Below, piece by piece: positions 29,233 through 49,340 of a stretch of 64,000 nt of DNA (position 1 is the stretch's first letter; each line of letters begins with the position of its first letter). The notes beneath the pieces are model-generated. The model was not told the DNA's origin. It did no database searches and saw nothing but the letters and a program-made list of their open reading frames with translations. The position numbers and the translations under genes were made by a program. This stretch comes from Sporichthya polymorpha DSM 43042 (GTDB lineage: Bacteria > Actinomycetota > Actinomycetes > Sporichthyales > Sporichthyaceae): contig NZ_KB913029.1 of NCBI RefSeq assembly GCF_000384115.1, positions 840,907 to 904,906 on the forward strand, in the 5' to 3' direction.

Positions 29233-30852
29233 GTGCGAGTCCACTCCAGGCGCTTCCTCACCGCGACTCCGATCGTGCTGAGTGCAGCGCTCGTGCTGAG
29301 CTCCTGCGGCGGCGGCAGCAGCGACAGCGACGCCACGGCGGCGAACGCCGCCCAGTCCGAAGCCGTCGTCACCGACCCGGCCGGGGCGCCGGTCGACGCG
29401 GCCGGCACCGACTCCGCGGCCGCGGACCCCGCTGCCGCACCGGTCTCGGACGCCGCGGGCGAAGCCGCCGCGGGGCAGGCGCCCGTCACCGGTGCGGCCG
29501 CGCCCGTGGAGTCGGCCGGCTCCGCCGCGAACAAGTCGTCGGCGAAGAAGGCCGGGACGTCCTCGGACACCTCGGCCAAGGGCGCGGCCGGCGCCTCCCT
29601 CGGCGGGCTGACGAGCATCGACTCCGCTGCCGAGCGCGCGGCCAACGATCGCGTCGCGGCGCAACGGGGCGGCGCCACCGACACGGGCGTCACCAAGGAC
29701 TCGATCAAGATGGGCACCGTCGGCATGTACGGCATGGCCCTGGGCAACCTGCTGATCGGGCCGATCGCGGCCGGCATCAAGGCCACCTTCACCTCGATCA
29801 ACGACCGCGGCGGCGTGCTCGGCCGTCGGCTGTCGTTGGTCGACTGCGACGACGGCCCGGGCGAGGTCTCCCGCTCGAAAGCCTGCATCAAGAAGCTCGT
29901 CGGCCAGGACAAGATCTTCGCGTTCATGGGCTACACGAGCTGGGCGTCCGCGTCGATCCACTCCGACCTGGCGCAGTACAAGGTTCCGGCCATCGGCACC
30001 TGGGCCTACTCCCAGACCGAGTGGCAGGACCCGTACATGTTCCCGACCCACATGTCGATGGTTCACGAGGCGATGACCAACGCCCATTGGGTGAAGAACG
30101 TCATCAAGCCCAAGACCTACGGCCTGCTCTGCCTGACCAGCCCCGAGATGCAGCTCTCGTGCAGCGAGGTGCAGCGGATCCTCGACGCCTCCGGCGCCAA
30201 GATGGTCAAGAAGGTCGACGTCGGCATCACCGAGACCTCCATGTCCGGCCAGGTCCTCGCGATGCGCGCCGCGAACCCCGACCACGTCATCCACTACGTG
30301 ATCAACGCGGCCACCACCACCAAGTTCCTCGTCGAGGCGTCCCAGCAGAACTACTACCCGCCGAAGGGCATCTCCGGTAACCACATGGCCGGCGAGATCA
30401 TCGGCTCGCTGTTCGGCAAGCACCCGGCCGGCCGGTACTGGACCAACACGACGTACAAGCTCTGGGGCACCGAGTTCATGGCGATCATGAACCGCTACGC
30501 CCGCGGCAACAAGGGTCTGAACCACCACATCGTCCAGGCCAGCTACGTCGGCGCCCTGGTGTTCGAGCGCGCCGCCAAGGCCGTCGGCCCGAACCTGACC
30601 CGCGAACGGCTGATGGCCCAGCTCTCCAACGGCGACGTCTACGCCGCCGATGCCTCCCTGGAGCAGAGCTGGTCGTGGAACAAGGCCGAACGCGGCGGCA
30701 CCGGCGCCAACCAGACCTGGAGCGACAAGCAGGGCCAGGGCCGCGAGTACATGTACAAGTACGAGAACACGAACACCATCGCCAACCCCGACGGCAGTCC
30801 CTCCGGCTTCGCTCCCGACAAGGACCAGTTCGTCATCTACACCAACAAGTGA
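29233..30852 (+). CDS. Branched-chain-type ABC substrate-binding lipoprotein (orphan), copy 1
   Basis: 539-residue lipoprotein with lipobox VLSSC (signal region RFLTATPIVLSAALVLSSCGGG), an acidic/alanine-rich linker of about 130 residues, and a periplasmic-binding-protein type 1 domain (from KDSIKMGTVGMYGMALGN). It is closely similar over the whole binding domain to the protein at 47739-49340; both contain NDRGGVLGRRLSLVDCDDGP and GLNHHIVQ and end QFVIYTN(K/R). No permease or ATPase gene adjoins either copy. GTG start with GAGGAG six bases upstream; an intrinsic terminator follows. Ligand unknown. Confidence 0.85.
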   Translation: MRVHSRRFLTATPIVLSAALVLSSCGGGSSDSDATAANAAQSEAVVTDPAGAPVDAAGTDSAAADPAAAPVSDAAGEAAAGQAPVTGAAAPVESAGSAANKSSAKKAGTSSDTSAKGAAGASLGGLTSIDSAAERAANDRVAAQRGGATDTGVTKDSIKMGTVGMYGMALGNLLIGPIAAGIKATFTSINDRGGVLGRRLSLVDCDDGPGEVSRSKACIKKLVGQDKIFAFMGYTSWASASIHSDLAQYKVPAIGTWAYSQTEWQDPYMFPTHMSMVHEAMTNAHWVKNVIKPKTYGLLCLTSPEMQLSCSEVQRILDASGAKMVKKVDVGITETSMSGQVLAMRAANPDHVIHYVINAATTTKFLVEASQQNYYPPKGISGNHMAGEIIGSLFGKHPAGRYWTNTTYKLWGTEFMAIMNRYARGNKGLNHHIVQASYVGALVFERAAKAVGPNLTRERLMAQLSNGDVYAADASLEQSWSWNKAERGGTGANQTWSDKQGQGREYMYKYENTNTIANPDGSPSGFAPDKDQFVIYTNK

Positions 30853-39000: not shown

Positions 39001-40659
39001 ATGCGACGAATGATGCGGAGCCGGAGGTTCGCGGGCCTCGCGGCAGGCATGTCGGCCGTACTCGCCCTGAGTGCGTGCAGTGACGGGGGCGGCAGCGGCG
39101 CCGAGGGCGACGACGACACGATCACCGTCCGTGGCTGCACGCCGTCGTTCCCGCTGACGCCGGCGGCGACCAGCTCGACCTGCGGGCTGAACATCCTCAA
39201 CGCGGTGACGGCGCGGCTGGTGCACTACGCCAGCAACGGCGAGGCACGCACGGACCTCGCGGAGTCGATCAGCACCGACGACGCGAAGACCTGGACGGTG
39301 CGCATCCGGGAGAACGCCACGTTCTCCGACGGCACCCCGGTGACCGCGGCGAGCTTCGTCGACGCGTGGAACTACGCCGCGTACGGGCCGAACAACTCGC
39401 CCAACGCGAACCTGTTCTCGCCGATCGTCGGCTACGAGTCGGTCCACCCGCTCGACCCGGACGGCGAGGAGGGCCTCGGCCAGGCGCCGCCGCCGAGCTC
39501 GACGCAGCTGTCGGGTCTGACGATCGCGGACGACCGGACCTTCACGATCGCGCTGCGTGAGGCGGACGCGACGTTCCCGCAGCGCCTGGGCCTGGTCGCC
39601 TTCGCCCCGCTGCCCGCGTCGTTCTTCACCGACGCCGGCCAGGAGTTCTCCGAGGAGCCGATCGGCGCCGGGCCGTTCACGCTCAGCGAGTGGGACCACG
39701 GCGACCGGATCGTGCTCGAGGCCTGGGACGACTACAGCGGTCCGTCCCGCGCGAAGGTCAAGAACGTGATCTTCAAGATGTACGACAACAGCGAGGCGGC
39801 CTACAACGACGTCGTCGCGAACACCCTCGACGTCACCGACGTCATCCCGGCCGGCGCCCGTGAGGACGAGCGCTACCAGGACGACCTCGACGACCGCTGG
39901 GTCGCGAGCCCGTACGGCCAGATCCAGGTGCTCCGCTTCCCGGACGAGGACGAGGACCGCACCTACCGGTCCGAGCGCCTCAAGCGCGCGATCTCGATGG
40001 CGCTCGACCGCAGCGAGCTCGTGAAGCTCGCCCCGGGCGAGTTCCTGGTCCCGGCCACCGGCTGGACCCCGCCGGGTGTCGCGGGCTACGAGGAGAACCG
40101 GTGCGGCCGGACCTGCCTCTACGACCGCGACGACGCCCGCGACGAGCGCAACCGCGCGGGTGGCTACGACGGCACGATCCGCATCACCTACGACGCCGAG
40201 ACCCCGACCGTCTCGAACCCGTCGATGTGGACCGAGGTCTGCCGTCAGATCGAGCGCGCGCTCAACGAGCCGTGCGAGGTCACGCCGGCGTCGGCGCAGC
40301 GGTTCCAGGACCTCATGACCGATGAGGAGACCGACGACCTGCTGGTCATCGACAAGACGATGGCCTACCCGTCGATCGACGACTTCCTGGTGCCGATGTA
40401 CTCCCGCAACGGTGTCGCAAACTGGGTGGACTACCGGTACACCCGCTTCAACGACGAGCTGAGCCGGGCGGCCTCGCGGCCGAACCTGGACGAGGCCTTC
40501 GACACCTACGCGGACGCTGAGGCCCTGCTGGTCAACGACATGCCGTCGGTGCCGCTCTGGTACACGAACTCGCTCGCCGGGTTCTCGGACCGGGTCACCG
40601 GGGTCAAGCTCGACATCTTCGGGCTGTACGACCTGACCGGGATCGCCGTGACCCGCTGA
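39001..40659 (+). CDS. Peptide/nickel-type ABC substrate-binding lipoprotein
   Basis: 552-residue extracytoplasmic binding protein of family 5 (OppA/DppA type). The signal peptide ends in ALSAC; the mature part starts with an aspartate-rich stretch and contains the family pattern LAESISTDDAKTWTVRIRENATFSDGTPVTAASFVDAWNYA and SERLKRAISMALDRSELVK. It ends LFGLYDLTG-like (DIFGLYDLTGIAVTR). ATG start; GGAGCGG-type ribosome site. No permease or ATPase gene adjoins it. A perfect intrinsic terminator follows at 40688-40717. Confidence 0.9.
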   Translation: MRRMMRSRRFAGLAAGMSAVLALSACSDGGGSGAEGDDDTITVRGCTPSFPLTPAATSSTCGLNILNAVTARLVHYASNGEARTDLAESISTDDAKTWTVRIRENATFSDGTPVTAASFVDAWNYAAYGPNNSPNANLFSPIVGYESVHPLDPDGEEGLGQAPPPSSTQLSGLTIADDRTFTIALREADATFPQRLGLVAFAPLPASFFTDAGQEFSEEPIGAGPFTLSEWDHGDRIVLEAWDDYSGPSRAKVKNVIFKMYDNSEAAYNDVVANTLDVTDVIPAGAREDERYQDDLDDRWVASPYGQIQVLRFPDEDEDRTYRSERLKRAISMALDRSELVKLAPGEFLVPATGWTPPGVAGYEENRCGRTCLYDRDDARDERNRAGGYDGTIRITYDAETPTVSNPSMWTEVCRQIERALNEPCEVTPASAQRFQDLMTDEETDDLLVIDKTMAYPSIDDFLVPMYSRNGVANWVDYRYTRFNDELSRAASRPNLDEAFDTYADAEALLVNDMPSVPLWYTNSLAGFSDRVTGVKLDIFGLYDLTGIAVTR

Positions 40660-45562: not shown

Positions 45563-46735
45563 ATGGCCGGTTATCAAGGCAACAAGGACTTCGACGCCTG
45601 CACGCTGCCGAAGGACTACGAGGACCTGCGCCAGTCGGTGCGGTCGCTCGCGGAGGCGCAGATCGCCCCGCACGCGCACGACGTCGACGACCAGGGCCGC
45701 TTCCCGAAGGAGGCCCTGGACGCCCTGCGCCAGGCCGGCTTCGACGCGCCCCACGTCCCCGAGGAGTACGGCGGCCAGGGTGCCGACGCCCTCGCGACGG
45801 TGATCATCGTCGAGGAGGTCGCGCGCGTCTGCATGTCGTCGTCGCTGATCCCCGGCGTGAACAAGCTCGGCTCGCTGCCGCTGATCCTCTCCGGCTCCGA
45901 GGAGCTGAAGAGCAAGTACCTGACGAAGCTCGCGAACGGCGAGGGGATGTTCTCCTACTGCCTGTCCGAGCCCGAGGCTGGTTCGGACGCCGGCGGCATG
46001 AAGACCCGCGCGGTCGCCGACGGCGACGGCTGGATCCTCAACGGCAGCAAGTGCTGGATCACCAACGCGGGCGAGTCCGAGTTCTACACCGTCTTCGCGG
46101 TCACCGACCCGGAGAAGGGTTCGCGCGGGGGCATCAGCGCCTTCGTCGTCGAGAAGAACGACAACGGCGTCTCCTTCGGCGCCCCCGAGCGCAAGCTCGG
46201 CATCAAGGGTTCGCCGACCCGCACCGTCACCTTCGACGACGTGCGCATCCCGGGCGACCGGATCATCGGCGAGGTGGGCACCGGCTTCACCACCGCGATG
46301 CGGACGCTCGACCACACCCGCATCACGATCGGCGCGCAGGCGCTCGGTGTCGCGCAGGGCGCGCTCGACTTCGCCGCGGGGTACATGAAGGAGCGCCGGC
46401 AGTTCGGCAAGGCGATCGCCGAGTTCCAGGGCCTGCAGTTCATGGTCGCGGACATGGCGATGCAGATCGAGGCTGCGCGTCAGCTCGTCTACGCCGCCGC
46501 CGCGAAGTCCGAGCGCGAGGACAAGGACCTGACGTACTTCGGCGCCGCGGCCAAGGCCTACGCGTCCGACGTCGCCATGAAGGTCACCACCGACGCCGTC
46601 CAGCTGCTCGGCGGCTACGGCTACGTGAAGGACTACCCGGTCGAGCGCATGATGCGCGACGCCAAGATCACCCAGATCTACGAGGGCACCAACCAGGTCC
46701 AGCGCATCGTCATCGCGCGGTCCCTGCTGAAGTAG
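45563..46735 (+). CDS. Acyl-CoA dehydrogenase
   Basis: 390-residue flavoprotein dehydrogenase. Marks: YCLSEPEAGSDAGGMKTRA (FAD/acyl-CoA site), WITNAGESEFYTVFAV, KLGIKGSPTRTVTFDDVRIP, the catalytic base region LLGGYGYVKDYPVERMMRDAKITQIYEGTNQVQR with the C-terminal helices. The substrate is probably a short- or branched-chain acyl-CoA such as butyryl- or isobutyryl-CoA, judging by the icmF context. ATG at 45563 with GAGGGAC upstream. An intrinsic terminator follows the gene. Confidence 0.94.
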   Translation: MAGYQGNKDFDACTLPKDYEDLRQSVRSLAEAQIAPHAHDVDDQGRFPKEALDALRQAGFDAPHVPEEYGGQGADALATVIIVEEVARVCMSSSLIPGVNKLGSLPLILSGSEELKSKYLTKLANGEGMFSYCLSEPEAGSDAGGMKTRAVADGDGWILNGSKCWITNAGESEFYTVFAVTDPEKGSRGGISAFVVEKNDNGVSFGAPERKLGIKGSPTRTVTFDDVRIPGDRIIGEVGTGFTTAMRTLDHTRITIGAQALGVAQGALDFAAGYMKERRQFGKAIAEFQGLQFMVADMAMQIEAARQLVYAAAAKSEREDKDLTYFGAAAKAYASDVAMKVTTDAVQLLGGYGYVKDYPVERMMRDAKITQIYEGTNQVQRIVIARSLLK

Positions 46736-46767: not shown

Positions 46768-46810
46768 ACGAGCCCCCACGGTCACGGACCGTGGGGGCTC
46801 GTGTGTTTTT
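46768..46810 (+). terminator. Intrinsic terminator after the acyl-CoA dehydrogenase gene
   Basis: ACGAGCCCCCACGGTC-ACG-GACCGTGGGGGCTCGT forms a perfect 16-bp stem with a 3-base loop, followed by GTGTTTTT. Clear rho-independent terminator of the icmF operon. Confidence 0.92.
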
Positions 46811-46941: not shown

Positions 46942-47742
46942 ATGGCGAACGGGTCGCCGGACCCCGACGCGGCCAGGTCCCCGGACACCGATCTCGATCG
47001 GCTCCGACACCTGGCCTATGTCGCCTTGCCCCCCGCCCTGGGGCGGACGCGCCGAGCCCGGGTCGCCGACGACCTCGCGCGGCGCAATCTCGCCGACGGG
47101 GCGCGCTGGTCCACCGCGCGTGACCGCCTGATCCCCGAGGTGCTGCGGGTCAGTCCGCACCCGAGCGGAGCCGGTGCCCTCGCCGCGCGGGTGCGCCCCC
47201 GCGGTCCCGAGTCGCCGGCCGAGACCGCCCTCGCCGCGATGACGCCGGCGACGCGGGCCGCCTACGTGCTGACCCGGTTGGAGGGCGTCCGCGGCGAGCG
47301 GGCGGAGGCGCTGCTGCGGCAGGCCGGGGTCACCGATCCGCGCACCGCCGTCAGCATGGCCGAGCGCGCGGACCTGTCACCGGAGGACGTGCGGGCCGTC
47401 GTCGTCCCCGTCGTGACGTCCACCCGGCGACCGCGGATCATCGCGGCGGCCGCAGCCGCGCTCGTCGTGGGCGTCGCCGCGCCGGTGATCGCGGTGAGCA
47501 CAAGCGGCGGCAGCGACGACGCCCCCGAGCAGGTCTCCAACCAGGCCCCGGTGCAGCAGCAGCCGGACGCGGACGCGATCGCGAAGGCCGTCCAGCTCGA
47601 CCGGGACCTGCGCCGCATCCTCGACCGGCTCGACGACGAGCTGGCGCGCCCCGACCAGAACAAGGCGGAGATCCAACGGCTGCGCACCCTGCGCGCGGCC
47701 GTTCTGGCGGAACAGAAGCGACTCGGTGGGAGCACACCATGA
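46942..47742 (+). CDS. Single-pass membrane protein with sigma-region-4-like N-domain, copy 1
   Basis: 266 residues. The N-terminal 160 residues are helical and basic with a motif ALAAMTPATRAAYVLTRLEG ... RAEALLRQAG that resembles sigma-70 region 4 helix-turn-helix in spacing. A hydrophobic helix (AAAAALVVGVAAPVIAVS) at about 178-196 splits this from a charged, coiled-coil-like outer part of about 70 residues (DRDLRRILDRLDDELAR). Its paralogue at 52301-53137 shares layout and the phrase GVxDPRTAVS. ATG at 46942; stop overlaps the next gene's start by 4 bases (ATGA). The sigma-like reading is an inference. Confidence 0.65.
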   Translation: MANGSPDPDAARSPDTDLDRLRHLAYVALPPALGRTRRARVADDLARRNLADGARWSTARDRLIPEVLRVSPHPSGAGALAARVRPRGPESPAETALAAMTPATRAAYVLTRLEGVRGERAEALLRQAGVTDPRTAVSMAERADLSPEDVRAVVVPVVTSTRRPRIIAAAAAALVVGVAAPVIAVSTSGGSDDAPEQVSNQAPVQQQPDADAIAKAVQLDRDLRRILDRLDDELARPDQNKAEIQRLRTLRAAVLAEQKRLGGSTP

Positions 47743-49340
47743 GACGGCCGGTACCCCGAAGCCTGCGCGCCGCCCTTCCGGTGGCGGTCGCCGCCGCGCT
47801 GCTGGTGTCCGCGTGCGGCGGTGGCAGCAATTCGGGGGACGTCGCCGAGGCCGCCCCGGTCGGCGACACCCTCGCGAATCCGCAGGACTCCACCGACAGC
47901 ACCGCCGCGCTCGTCAAGGCGGTCGCGGACTACCTCGACGCCCAGGCCTCCAAGCGCGGCAAGGGCAGCCCCGAGGACGCGGCCACTCGAGCGCTGGCCG
48001 AGGCCGTCGCGCAGGCGCAGGCCGACGACCCCCTGCCGGCCGCTCCGGCCGCGACGCAGAAGGCGCCGGTCCAGCAGACCAAGAAGCAGGTCGAGTCGCT
48101 GCGCGCGGCGAACAGCTACGAGGGTGCGACGTCGGCGAAGGCGAACGCCCGCATCGCCGCGCAGAAGAACGGCATCACCGACGTCGGCGTCACGCAGGAC
48201 TCGATCAAGATGGGCACGGTGACCATGCACGGCATGGCGCTGGGCAACGTGCTCGCGACCCCGCTCGTCAACGGCGTCAAGGCGACGTTCGCGTCGATCA
48301 ACGACCGCGGCGGTGTGCTCGGCCGGCGGCTCTCGCTCGTCGACTGCGACGACGGTCCCGGTGAGGTCTCACGATCGAAGGCCTGCATCAAGAAGCTCGT
48401 GCAGCAGGACAAGGTCTTCGCGTTCCTCGGCTACTCGAGCTGGGCGTCCGCGTCGGTCCACTCGGACCTCGCGACCTACCGCATCCCGGCCATCGGCACC
48501 TGGGCCTACTCCCAGACCGAGTGGCAGGACTCGTACATGTTCCCCACGCACATGTCGATGATCCACGAGGCGATGGCCAACGCCCACTGGGTGAAGAACG
48601 TCATCAAGCCCAAGACGTACGGCCTCGTCTGCCTCGCGAGCCCGGAGATGCAGCTGGCGTGCCAGCAGGTGCAGCAGATCCTCGACGAGTCGGGCGCGGA
48701 CCTGGTCCGCAAGCTCGACGTCGCGATCTCCGAGACCTCGATGTCCGCGCAGATCCTCTCGATGCGCGCGGCGAACCCGGAGCACATCGTCCACTACGTC
48801 ATCAACCCGGCCACGATGGTGAAGTTCATGGTCGAGGCGGCGCAGCAGGGTTACTACCCGTCGAAGGGCATCTCGGGGAACCACCTCGCGGCCGAGGTGC
48901 TCGGCTCGCTGTTCGGGCAGCACCCCGTCGGCCGCTACTGGACGAACACGACCTACAAGCTGTGGGGCCCGGAGTTCATGGCGACCATGAACAAGTACGC
49001 CCGCGGCAACAAGGGCCTGAACCACCACATCGTGCAGTCCAGCTACGTCGGCGCGCTGGTGTTCGAGAAGGCGGCGAAGACCGTCGGCCCGAACCTGACG
49101 CGTGAGCGGCTGATGGCCCAACTCGCGAACGGCGACGTCTACACCGCCGACGCCTCGCTGGACCAGCGCTTCTCGTGGGCCCCGGCCGAGCGGTACGGCC
49201 AGAACTGGAATCCCGAGTACGGCCAGGGCCGCGAGTACATGTACAAGTACACCTCCACCAACACCGTCTCGAACCCGGACGGCACCCCGTCCGGGTTCGA
49301 ACCCGACCCCGACCAGTTCGTGATCTACACGAACAGGTAG
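47739..49340 (+). CDS. Branched-chain-type ABC substrate-binding lipoprotein (orphan), copy 2
   Basis: 533-residue lipoprotein with lipobox LVSAC, an alanine/glutamine-rich linker and a type 1 periplasmic binding domain. It is highly similar to the protein at 29233-30852 over the binding domain (shared blocks GTWAYSQTEWQD, MFPTHMSM, YKLWGPEFMATMN and GREYMYKY), but the linker has diverged. It is translationally coupled to the upstream membrane protein, unlike copy 1. No transport permease or ATPase gene adjoins it, so it may serve as a sensor or share a permease elsewhere. Confidence 0.85.
   Translation: MRRPVPRSLRAALPVAVAAALLVSACGGGSNSGDVAEAAPVGDTLANPQDSTDSTAALVKAVADYLDAQASKRGKGSPEDAATRALAEAVAQAQADDPLPAAPAATQKAPVQQTKKQVESLRAANSYEGATSAKANARIAAQKNGITDVGVTQDSIKMGTVTMHGMALGNVLATPLVNGVKATFASINDRGGVLGRRLSLVDCDDGPGEVSRSKACIKKLVQQDKVFAFLGYSSWASASVHSDLATYRIPAIGTWAYSQTEWQDSYMFPTHMSMIHEAMANAHWVKNVIKPKTYGLVCLASPEMQLACQQVQQILDESGADLVRKLDVAISETSMSAQILSMRAANPEHIVHYVINPATMVKFMVEAAQQGYYPSKGISGNHLAAEVLGSLFGQHPVGRYWTNTTYKLWGPEFMATMNKYARGNKGLNHHIVQSSYVGALVFEKAAKTVGPNLTRERLMAQLANGDVYTADASLDQRFSWAPAERYGQNWNPEYGQGREYMYKYTSTNTVSNPDGTPSGFEPDPDQFVIYTNR

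Follow-up and report, generated by a model that had tools for sequence, protein, structure and literature searches.

The window, a 64,000-nucleotide stretch of the Sporichthya polymorpha genome, contains a gene for a membrane protein with a helical inner domain that overlaps with the gene for a substrate-binding lipoprotein. The initial annotation interpreted this arrangement as a one-step signalling pair, in which extracellular sensing would be coupled to gene control through a helix-turn-helix-like part inside the cell. The locus raises the questions of whether the inner domain is related to sigma factors and could act on DNA, and whether the two proteins are dedicated partners.

Organization of the gene pair

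The pair occupies positions 46942–49340 of the window, with both genes on the plus strand. Gene 1 (P0001; 46942–47742, plus strand), recognized as an open frame under purifying selection and modelled with AlphaFold, encodes a membrane-anchored ECF-sigma-like protein of 266 residues. Gene 2 (P0002; 47739–49340, plus strand) encodes a substrate-binding lipoprotein of 533 residues, identified by Pfam, with the lipobox cysteine at residue 26. The stop codon of gene 1 and the start codon of gene 2 share the sequence ATGA (47739–47742, plus strand). Five genomes of the family were compared, three from the genus (G000, which contains the window, G001, and G002) and two from a sister genus (G003 and G004). 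The overlap described in the initial annotation is shared by each of the three genus genomes.

A strong intrinsic terminator (46768–46802, plus strand), with a stem of 16 base pairs, a loop of 3 bases, and a T-rich tail, is positioned 3′ of an acyl-CoA dehydrogenase gene and upstream of gene 1. It is the only terminator-like site between positions 46500 and 53500, a region for which shuffled sequences contain 1.6 such sites on average. Because the terminator precedes gene 1 and the next gene downstream of gene 2 has the opposite direction, the two genes appear to form an operon. A sigma-70 consensus promoter was not found at the pair, which has little meaning in such a genome. Comparison of the window genome with its nearest relative among the genomes compared gives dN/dS values of 0.18 for P0001, 0.17 for P0002, and 0.16 for the neighbouring acyl-CoA dehydrogenase; therefore, both genes of the pair are under purifying selection.

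The genes surrounding the pair presumably encode a mutase-like fusion protein, a hydroxyacyl-CoA dehydrogenase-like protein, and an acyl-CoA dehydrogenase-like protein, and a PhaC gene was identified nearby by Pfam. Other parts of the window contain a mycofactocin-type gene cluster (16872–22682), which includes a 36-residue precursor peptide (Pfam MftA, E 6.5e-14), a radical SAM protein, a glycosyltransferase, and an FMN-dependent dehydrogenase, as well as a gene for a protein that looks secreted and contains calcium-binding repeats of the RTX type (15191–16864; Pfam HemolysinCabind, E 1.1e-13).

Predicted structure of P0001

The AlphaFold model of P0001, based on a 25-row alignment, has a mean pLDDT of 81, with values of approximately 90 or more across most of the inner domain. 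From the N-terminus, three helices are separated by a gap from a further four, after which come a membrane helix and an outer hairpin of two helices. The cytosolic domain (residues 13–151; 46978–47394, plus strand) contains the sigma2-like helices 14–28, 35–50, and 56–69, followed by the sigma4-like helices 92–98, 102–113, 118–127, and 133–142. The membrane helix (residues 164–184; 47431–47493, plus strand) is indicated by hydropathy, flanking charges, and the model. The mean hydropathy of its best 19 residues is 2.54, and the net charges of its inner and outer flanks are +4 and −3. The positive N-terminal and acidic C-terminal sides predict that the N-terminus is inside the cell and the C-terminus outside.

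The outer helical hairpin (residues 210–262; 47569–47727, plus strand) is formed in the model by helices 210–234 and 241–262, with pLDDT of approximately 84–94, and can be aligned across eight family members. The first helix of the hairpin has a hydrophobic moment of 0.77, which is matched by 0.2% of shuffled sequences, and it is the only one of eight peptides to exceed its shuffles. The protein is predicted to have the membrane anchor and helical N-domain that had been proposed for it, together with an outer helical part, which the initial annotation described as a coiled coil.

Fold and charge of the inner domain

An hhalign comparison of 25 N-domains of the family with 15 ECF sigma factors from the same genome gives a probability of 96.2% with E 2.2e-9; the 132 matched columns extend through both sigma2 and sigma4. 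A narrower alignment (A2) reaches 86.1% in sigma4 only, and three comparisons of unrelated alignments give 0.05–0.09%. The structural comparison of the P0001 model with VIA-align has SigW (two entries), SigJ, SigG1, and the RpoE-NepR complex in its top five rows. The Z-scores of these rows are 8.8–9.3 over 123–133 aligned residues, within residues 4–162, and are below the level of approximately 13 under which matches between helical bundles may be unspecific. A Foldseek search with the same model has a best E of 0.054, which is not significant. A separate AlphaFold model of a relative from Streptomyces (mean pLDDT 85) has SigG1 as its first VIA-align match, with a Z-score of 9.0 over 136 residues, followed by a row with 6.4. 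It is well supported by the profile match and the predicted structures that the inner domain has an ECF-like fold with sigma2 and sigma4 combined in one chain, as in ECF sigma factors. The initial annotation described the domain as sigma-4-like; the relation to sigma factors stands, and the description is too narrow, since the resemblance covers an ECF sigma factor in its entirety. An unrelated fold, which would have counted against that annotation, is not what the prediction gives: the best structural matches are ECF sigma factors.

The similarity does not extend to family assignment. None of the scanned family members reaches the Pfam cut-offs for sigma-70 region 2 or region 4, or any Pfam or NCBIfam family cut-off. 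The best sub-threshold Pfam match of P0001 is PF22233, with 13.8 bits against a cut-off of 27. Among 13 scanned N-domains the best E-values are 0.016 for Sigma70_r4_2 and 0.0088 for PhyR_sigma-like, and the best match among 10 scanned proteins is PF08281, with 18.2 bits against a cut-off of 25.7. By contrast, three ordinary ECF sigma factors of the same genome are easily above the Pfam sigma cut-offs.

The charges of two segments, which were presumably assigned to the correct sigma regions on the basis of the alignments and known sigma anatomy, differ from those of ECF sigma factors. The net charge of the 22-residue recognition-helix segment is −1.28 in 25 rows of the family and −0.85 in 13, compared with +4.27 in the 15 ECF sigma factors. 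On average, the segment contains 2.00 basic and 3.28 acidic residues in the 25 family members, and 4.93 basic and 0.67 acidic residues in the ECF sigma factors. The family therefore lacks the basic −35 recognition helix that characterizes ECF sigma factors. The sigma2.2 segment, which is acidic in ECF sigma factors (−2.20), has a net charge of +2.00 in the family. The charge changes in the two segments argue against ordinary promoter binding, and the direct control of genes by a helix-turn-helix, as initially proposed, is unsupported. Because the recognition helix is without positive charge and the Pfam sigma cut-offs are not reached, it is likelier that the domain is a sigma mimic acting through protein contacts than that it binds DNA directly.

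The closest working analogue of such a mimic is the sigma-like domain of the anti-anti-sigma factor PhyR, in which the sigma2–sigma4 fold is used for protein contact and not for promoter binding. PhyR binds NepR, which is also implied by the title of a structure entry. Structures of PhyR are among the VIA-align rows for P0001, with Z-scores of 7.3, 7.1, and 5.1, and PhyR profiles also match weakly, below threshold. Unlike PhyR, P0001 is membrane-anchored and actinobacterial, and it has no receiver domain: searches of Pfam and NCBIfam with E-values allowed up to 1 gave no REC match.

Five copies of a free-standing sigma-like domain without a membrane helix are distributed over all five family genomes (L065:5942–6394, L075:7685–8137, L076:7624–8070, L070:1937–2371, and L069:6627–7064). 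The neighbours of these copies, labelled from the starts of their sequences alone, differ between the two genera.

Relation to membrane-fused ECF sigma factors

Membrane-fused ECF sigma factors of Actinobacteria are known from groups ECF48, ECF52, and ECF53, with SCO4117 as an example; according to PMC8999054 and PMC5826349, proteolytic activation has been shown for IutY of Pseudomonas putida and is expected or proposed for the three groups. The ECF48, ECF52, and ECF53 proteins and IutY share with P0001 a sigma domain inside the cell, a C-terminal membrane helix (residues 164–184 in P0001), an outer part, and possible release by proteolysis (PMC8999054, PMC5826349). Their ECF domains are canonical, whereas that of P0001 is degenerate, and the presumed sensor of P0001 is a separate lipoprotein. 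ECF48, ECF52, and ECF53 include a zinc-finger anti-sigma part, which in SCO4117 is followed by an outer carbohydrate-binding module. P0001 contains no cysteines and, consequently, has no zinc-finger anti-sigma (ZAS-like) part; a Pfam search at E up to 1 also found no zinc-finger match. Because P0001 has no zinc finger, remains below the Pfam thresholds, and differs in its charges, it is not classified as an ECF sigma factor; nonetheless, it may work like the membrane-fused ECF systems.

It is possible to regard the inner domain as a functional ECF sigma factor, or another regulator that binds DNA, which is tethered to the membrane and set free proteolytically once the lipoprotein is loaded, as proposed for the ECF52 group (PMC8999054, PMC5826349); the pair would then be the one-step signalling pair of the initial annotation. 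The existence of membrane-fused ECF sigma factors in Actinobacteria, the ECF-like fold spanning sigma2 and sigma4, and the free-standing copies in all five genomes are consistent with this; however, the recognition-helix charge is lost and the sigma2.2 charge reversed across the alignments examined, the Pfam cut-offs are passed by ordinary ECF sigma factors of the genome and not by the family, and the zinc-finger part is missing. A working sigma factor is therefore quite unlikely, and a sigma mimic is the preferred reading of the domain.

Lipoprotein and conservation of the pairing

P0002 has the lipobox LLVSAC, ending in Cys26, and a ligand-binding core (residues 172–469; 48252–49145, plus strand) that matches Pfam Peripla_BP_6 with E 2.2e-38 and 133.3 bits, against a cut-off of 31.7. 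The identification of gene 2 as encoding a substrate-binding lipoprotein is thus confirmed. The claim that it lacks any transporter holds for LivH/LivM-type permeases, the type that was searched for: the nearest match to PF02653 is approximately 150 kb away in the window genome, a single contig of 5.5 Mb. P0002 differs in this from LivJ/K-type ABC importers, which have adjoining LivH/LivM permease genes. The profile of the lipoprotein matches no solved structure at E up to 0.001 from which a ligand could be named, and a link to branched-chain or short-chain acids is a guess from the gene surroundings.

The lipoprotein belongs to an expanded family with five close copies in the window genome and approximately 20 places in G004. 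In these two genomes the copies often adjoin genes for acyl-CoA dehydrogenase-like or short-chain dehydrogenase-like proteins. One paralogue in the window (29251–30852, plus strand; G000:C1:870157–871755) is 66% identical to P0002. A lipoprotein from a different family, SBP_bac_5 (Pfam E 5.9e-52), is encoded at 39001–40659.

The five family genomes encode eight membrane forms of the sigma-like protein, two each in G000, G001, and G002 and one each in G003 and G004. Four of the eight have a binding lipoprotein encoded directly downstream. The pair in G001 spans a contig break, with the overlap and the lipoprotein start on contig C237. In G004 the genes are approximately 250 bp apart, and two binding lipoproteins follow in tandem. 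In G003 the gene next to the membrane gene is short-chain dehydrogenase-like and no binding protein is encoded beside it; the metabolic genes found ahead of the pair in the other genomes are clustered on different contigs, without the pair.

A second membrane-anchored sigma-like protein (P0003; 52301–53137, plus strand) has 278 residues and is 48% identical to P0001. Its gene lies 3 kb downstream of the pair, divergent from the PhaC gene, and is followed by pfkB and surE. Its position is conserved among the three genus genomes (split over two contigs in G001), and its dN/dS is 0.10. No binding lipoprotein is encoded beside any of the three P0003-type copies. The pairing is thus conserved in four of the five genomes, and it is absent from G003 and from the paralogue P0003.

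Partner-specific module of the lipoprotein

Residues 38–109 of P0002 (47850–48065, plus strand) form an N-terminal module that includes the conserved stretch TAxLVxAVAxYLDxQA. The lipoproteins of the five genomes were sampled at 35 places, of which four contig-edge pieces without the extension were left out; 28 of the remaining 31 are visible back to the lipobox, and three are cut by a contig end. The module is present in 5 of the 31; in the remaining 26 its place is taken by a low-complexity linker rich in Ala, Pro, Ser, and Thr. The five bearers, which represent two loci in two genera and not five independent events, are exactly the lipoproteins encoded directly downstream of a membrane-type sigma-like gene. 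The paralogue at 29251–30852 has a linker extension, no module, and no sigma-like neighbour.

A model built from the three copies of the genus finds both G004 copies (E 4.6e-8 and 1.3e-4), while all other extensions score negative. The reverse model, built from the G004 copies, recovers all three copies of the genus (E 6.9e-9 to 9.5e-6) and nothing else among the extensions. The association of the module with the membrane gene is not circular, because each model finds the copies of the other alone. When every candidate in the five whole genomes was scored, the search returned the same five copies and one match at chance level (E 0.085). In a search of 393 genomes of the class, the module was found in four genomes, all from the family of the window; its absence outside the family is weak evidence, since at most the best 15 candidates were scored per genome.

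The module does not follow the ancestry of the lipoproteins. In a tree of 29 cores, from which the extension was removed, the module bearers require two changes, and their single grouping is rejected with an AU p of 0.006; the group was named before this tree, yet after an earlier tree had revealed the split. The G004 pair is on a long branch. Orthology of the G004 lipoproteins beside the membrane gene with P0002 is not supported by the trees, which place them in another clade. Because the module sits on two lipoprotein clades, it tracks the membrane gene. The pattern may have originated by exchange of the module, or the module may have been retained while the cores around it were converted; a caution is that gene conversion among cores within a genus, with the module left in place, would produce the same pattern. 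Separately, a common origin of the module and the hairpin of P0001 is unsupported (hhalign 0.3%, E 0.2), and the hydrophobic moment of the presumed module helices is not above that of shuffled sequences.

Since the module tracks the membrane gene, the sequences support a pairing that goes beyond chance adjacency, and this part of the proposed signalling pair stands. There is good sequence evidence that P0002 is a dedicated partner of P0001. The lipoprotein could instead function in ordinary transport, together with an ABC permease encoded far away, with the membrane gene as a chance or co-expressed neighbour and the module as a spacer or cell-wall anchor. The expansion of the lipoprotein family, the 80 PF02653 matches in the window genome that could serve it in trans, and the genome without the pairing are in keeping with a transport function. 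However, a general anchor or spacer should not follow one neighbour, and the module occurs exclusively in the copies adjacent to the membrane gene, on two lipoprotein clades; the overlap is also kept throughout the genus. A transport protein with an incidental neighbour is thus unlikely, and dedicated partnership remains the preferred reading.

Relatives outside the family

A search of 393 genomes of the class with the N-domain profile, in which the best 10 candidates were scored per genome, found strong matches in the family of the window and in two other families. Matches were obtained in 90 of the 393 genomes, including a weak partial tail (E weaker than approximately 1e-6) that is taken to consist mostly of ordinary ECF sigma factors and was excluded from the family count. 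P0001 alone as a query against the genome contigs gave no match. At least 571 stretches in named genomes encode a relative, and 80 were kept, from Streptomyces, Kitasatospora, Streptacidiphilus, Nocardiopsis, Herbidospora, Sinosporangium, Kribbella, and Longispora. Of these loci, five lacked a usable gene call and were excluded; alignments A4 and A6 each contain 23 proteins from the remaining 75 loci, chosen for diversity.

The relatives from Streptomyces, Kitasatospora, Nocardiopsis, Herbidospora, Kribbella, and Longispora resemble P0001 in having a single membrane helix and an inner domain homologous to its sigma-like domain. Unlike P0001, the Streptomyces-type proteins are approximately 580–690 residues long and have a fused, largely beta-structured outer region of approximately 350–400 residues, which a fold search with the model of the Streptomyces relative did not firmly identify. 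No binding lipoprotein was recognized, as judged by gene starts, beside the gene in seven named Streptomyces-type loci.

Proposed signalling unit

The reading preferred here, with a probability of roughly one half, is that P0001 and P0002 form a two-protein membrane signalling unit, in which the lipoprotein would dock through its module on the outer hairpin and the inner domain would be a sigma mimic. We infer the docking, ligand, cytosolic target, and direction of effect as follows. The lipoprotein would bind a small molecule outside the cell, and its N-terminal module would attach to the helical hairpin of P0001. The state of the ligand would alter the hairpin and then the availability of the sigma-like domain, either through the single membrane helix or by proteolysis. 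The sigma-like domain, probably a degenerate one without the charged surfaces that ordinary ECF sigma factors use toward promoter DNA and RNA polymerase, would engage a partner of real sigma factors, which may be an anti-sigma factor or the polymerase. The state of the lipoprotein would change that engagement or free the domain.

Periplasmic binding proteins serve as co-receptors in LuxP–LuxQ and ChvE–VirA, where they signal to a membrane protein and not to a transporter, as proposed for this pair. The partners in those systems are histidine kinases, whereas here the partner is a sigma-like protein. A keyword search limited to the open-access literature found no paper on this pair or on such a pseudo-sigma.

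The loss of the charged functional surfaces, together with the lack of an identified cytosolic target, would also fit a non-signalling scaffold that holds the lipoprotein and other envelope proteins, with the sigma-like fold as a relic. This is improbable, because purifying selection acts on the inner domain as it does on the remainder of the protein (dN/dS 0.18 for P0001 and 0.10 for P0003), and a membrane scaffold does not explain why the domain is kept free-standing in all five genomes.

The signalling unit may be part of a wider scheme, which is a tentative and rather doubtful extension of it. P0001 would be a membrane-tethered pseudo-sigma that signals as an anti-sigma sponge, in competition for the partners of real sigma factors, with a detachable lipoprotein sensor whose docking module was kept or moved between lineages; in the Streptomyces form, sensor and pseudo-sigma would belong to a single fused chain.

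Through the partner-specific module, the pairing is open to direct testing. ECF sigma factors fused to a membrane part are already known; if the proposed unit is correct, it would represent a new route from extracellular binding proteins into sigma-factor networks. A function found for this pair may also explain a conserved, unnamed membrane protein of antibiotic producers, which is encoded in at least 571 stretches of Streptomyces-type genomes.
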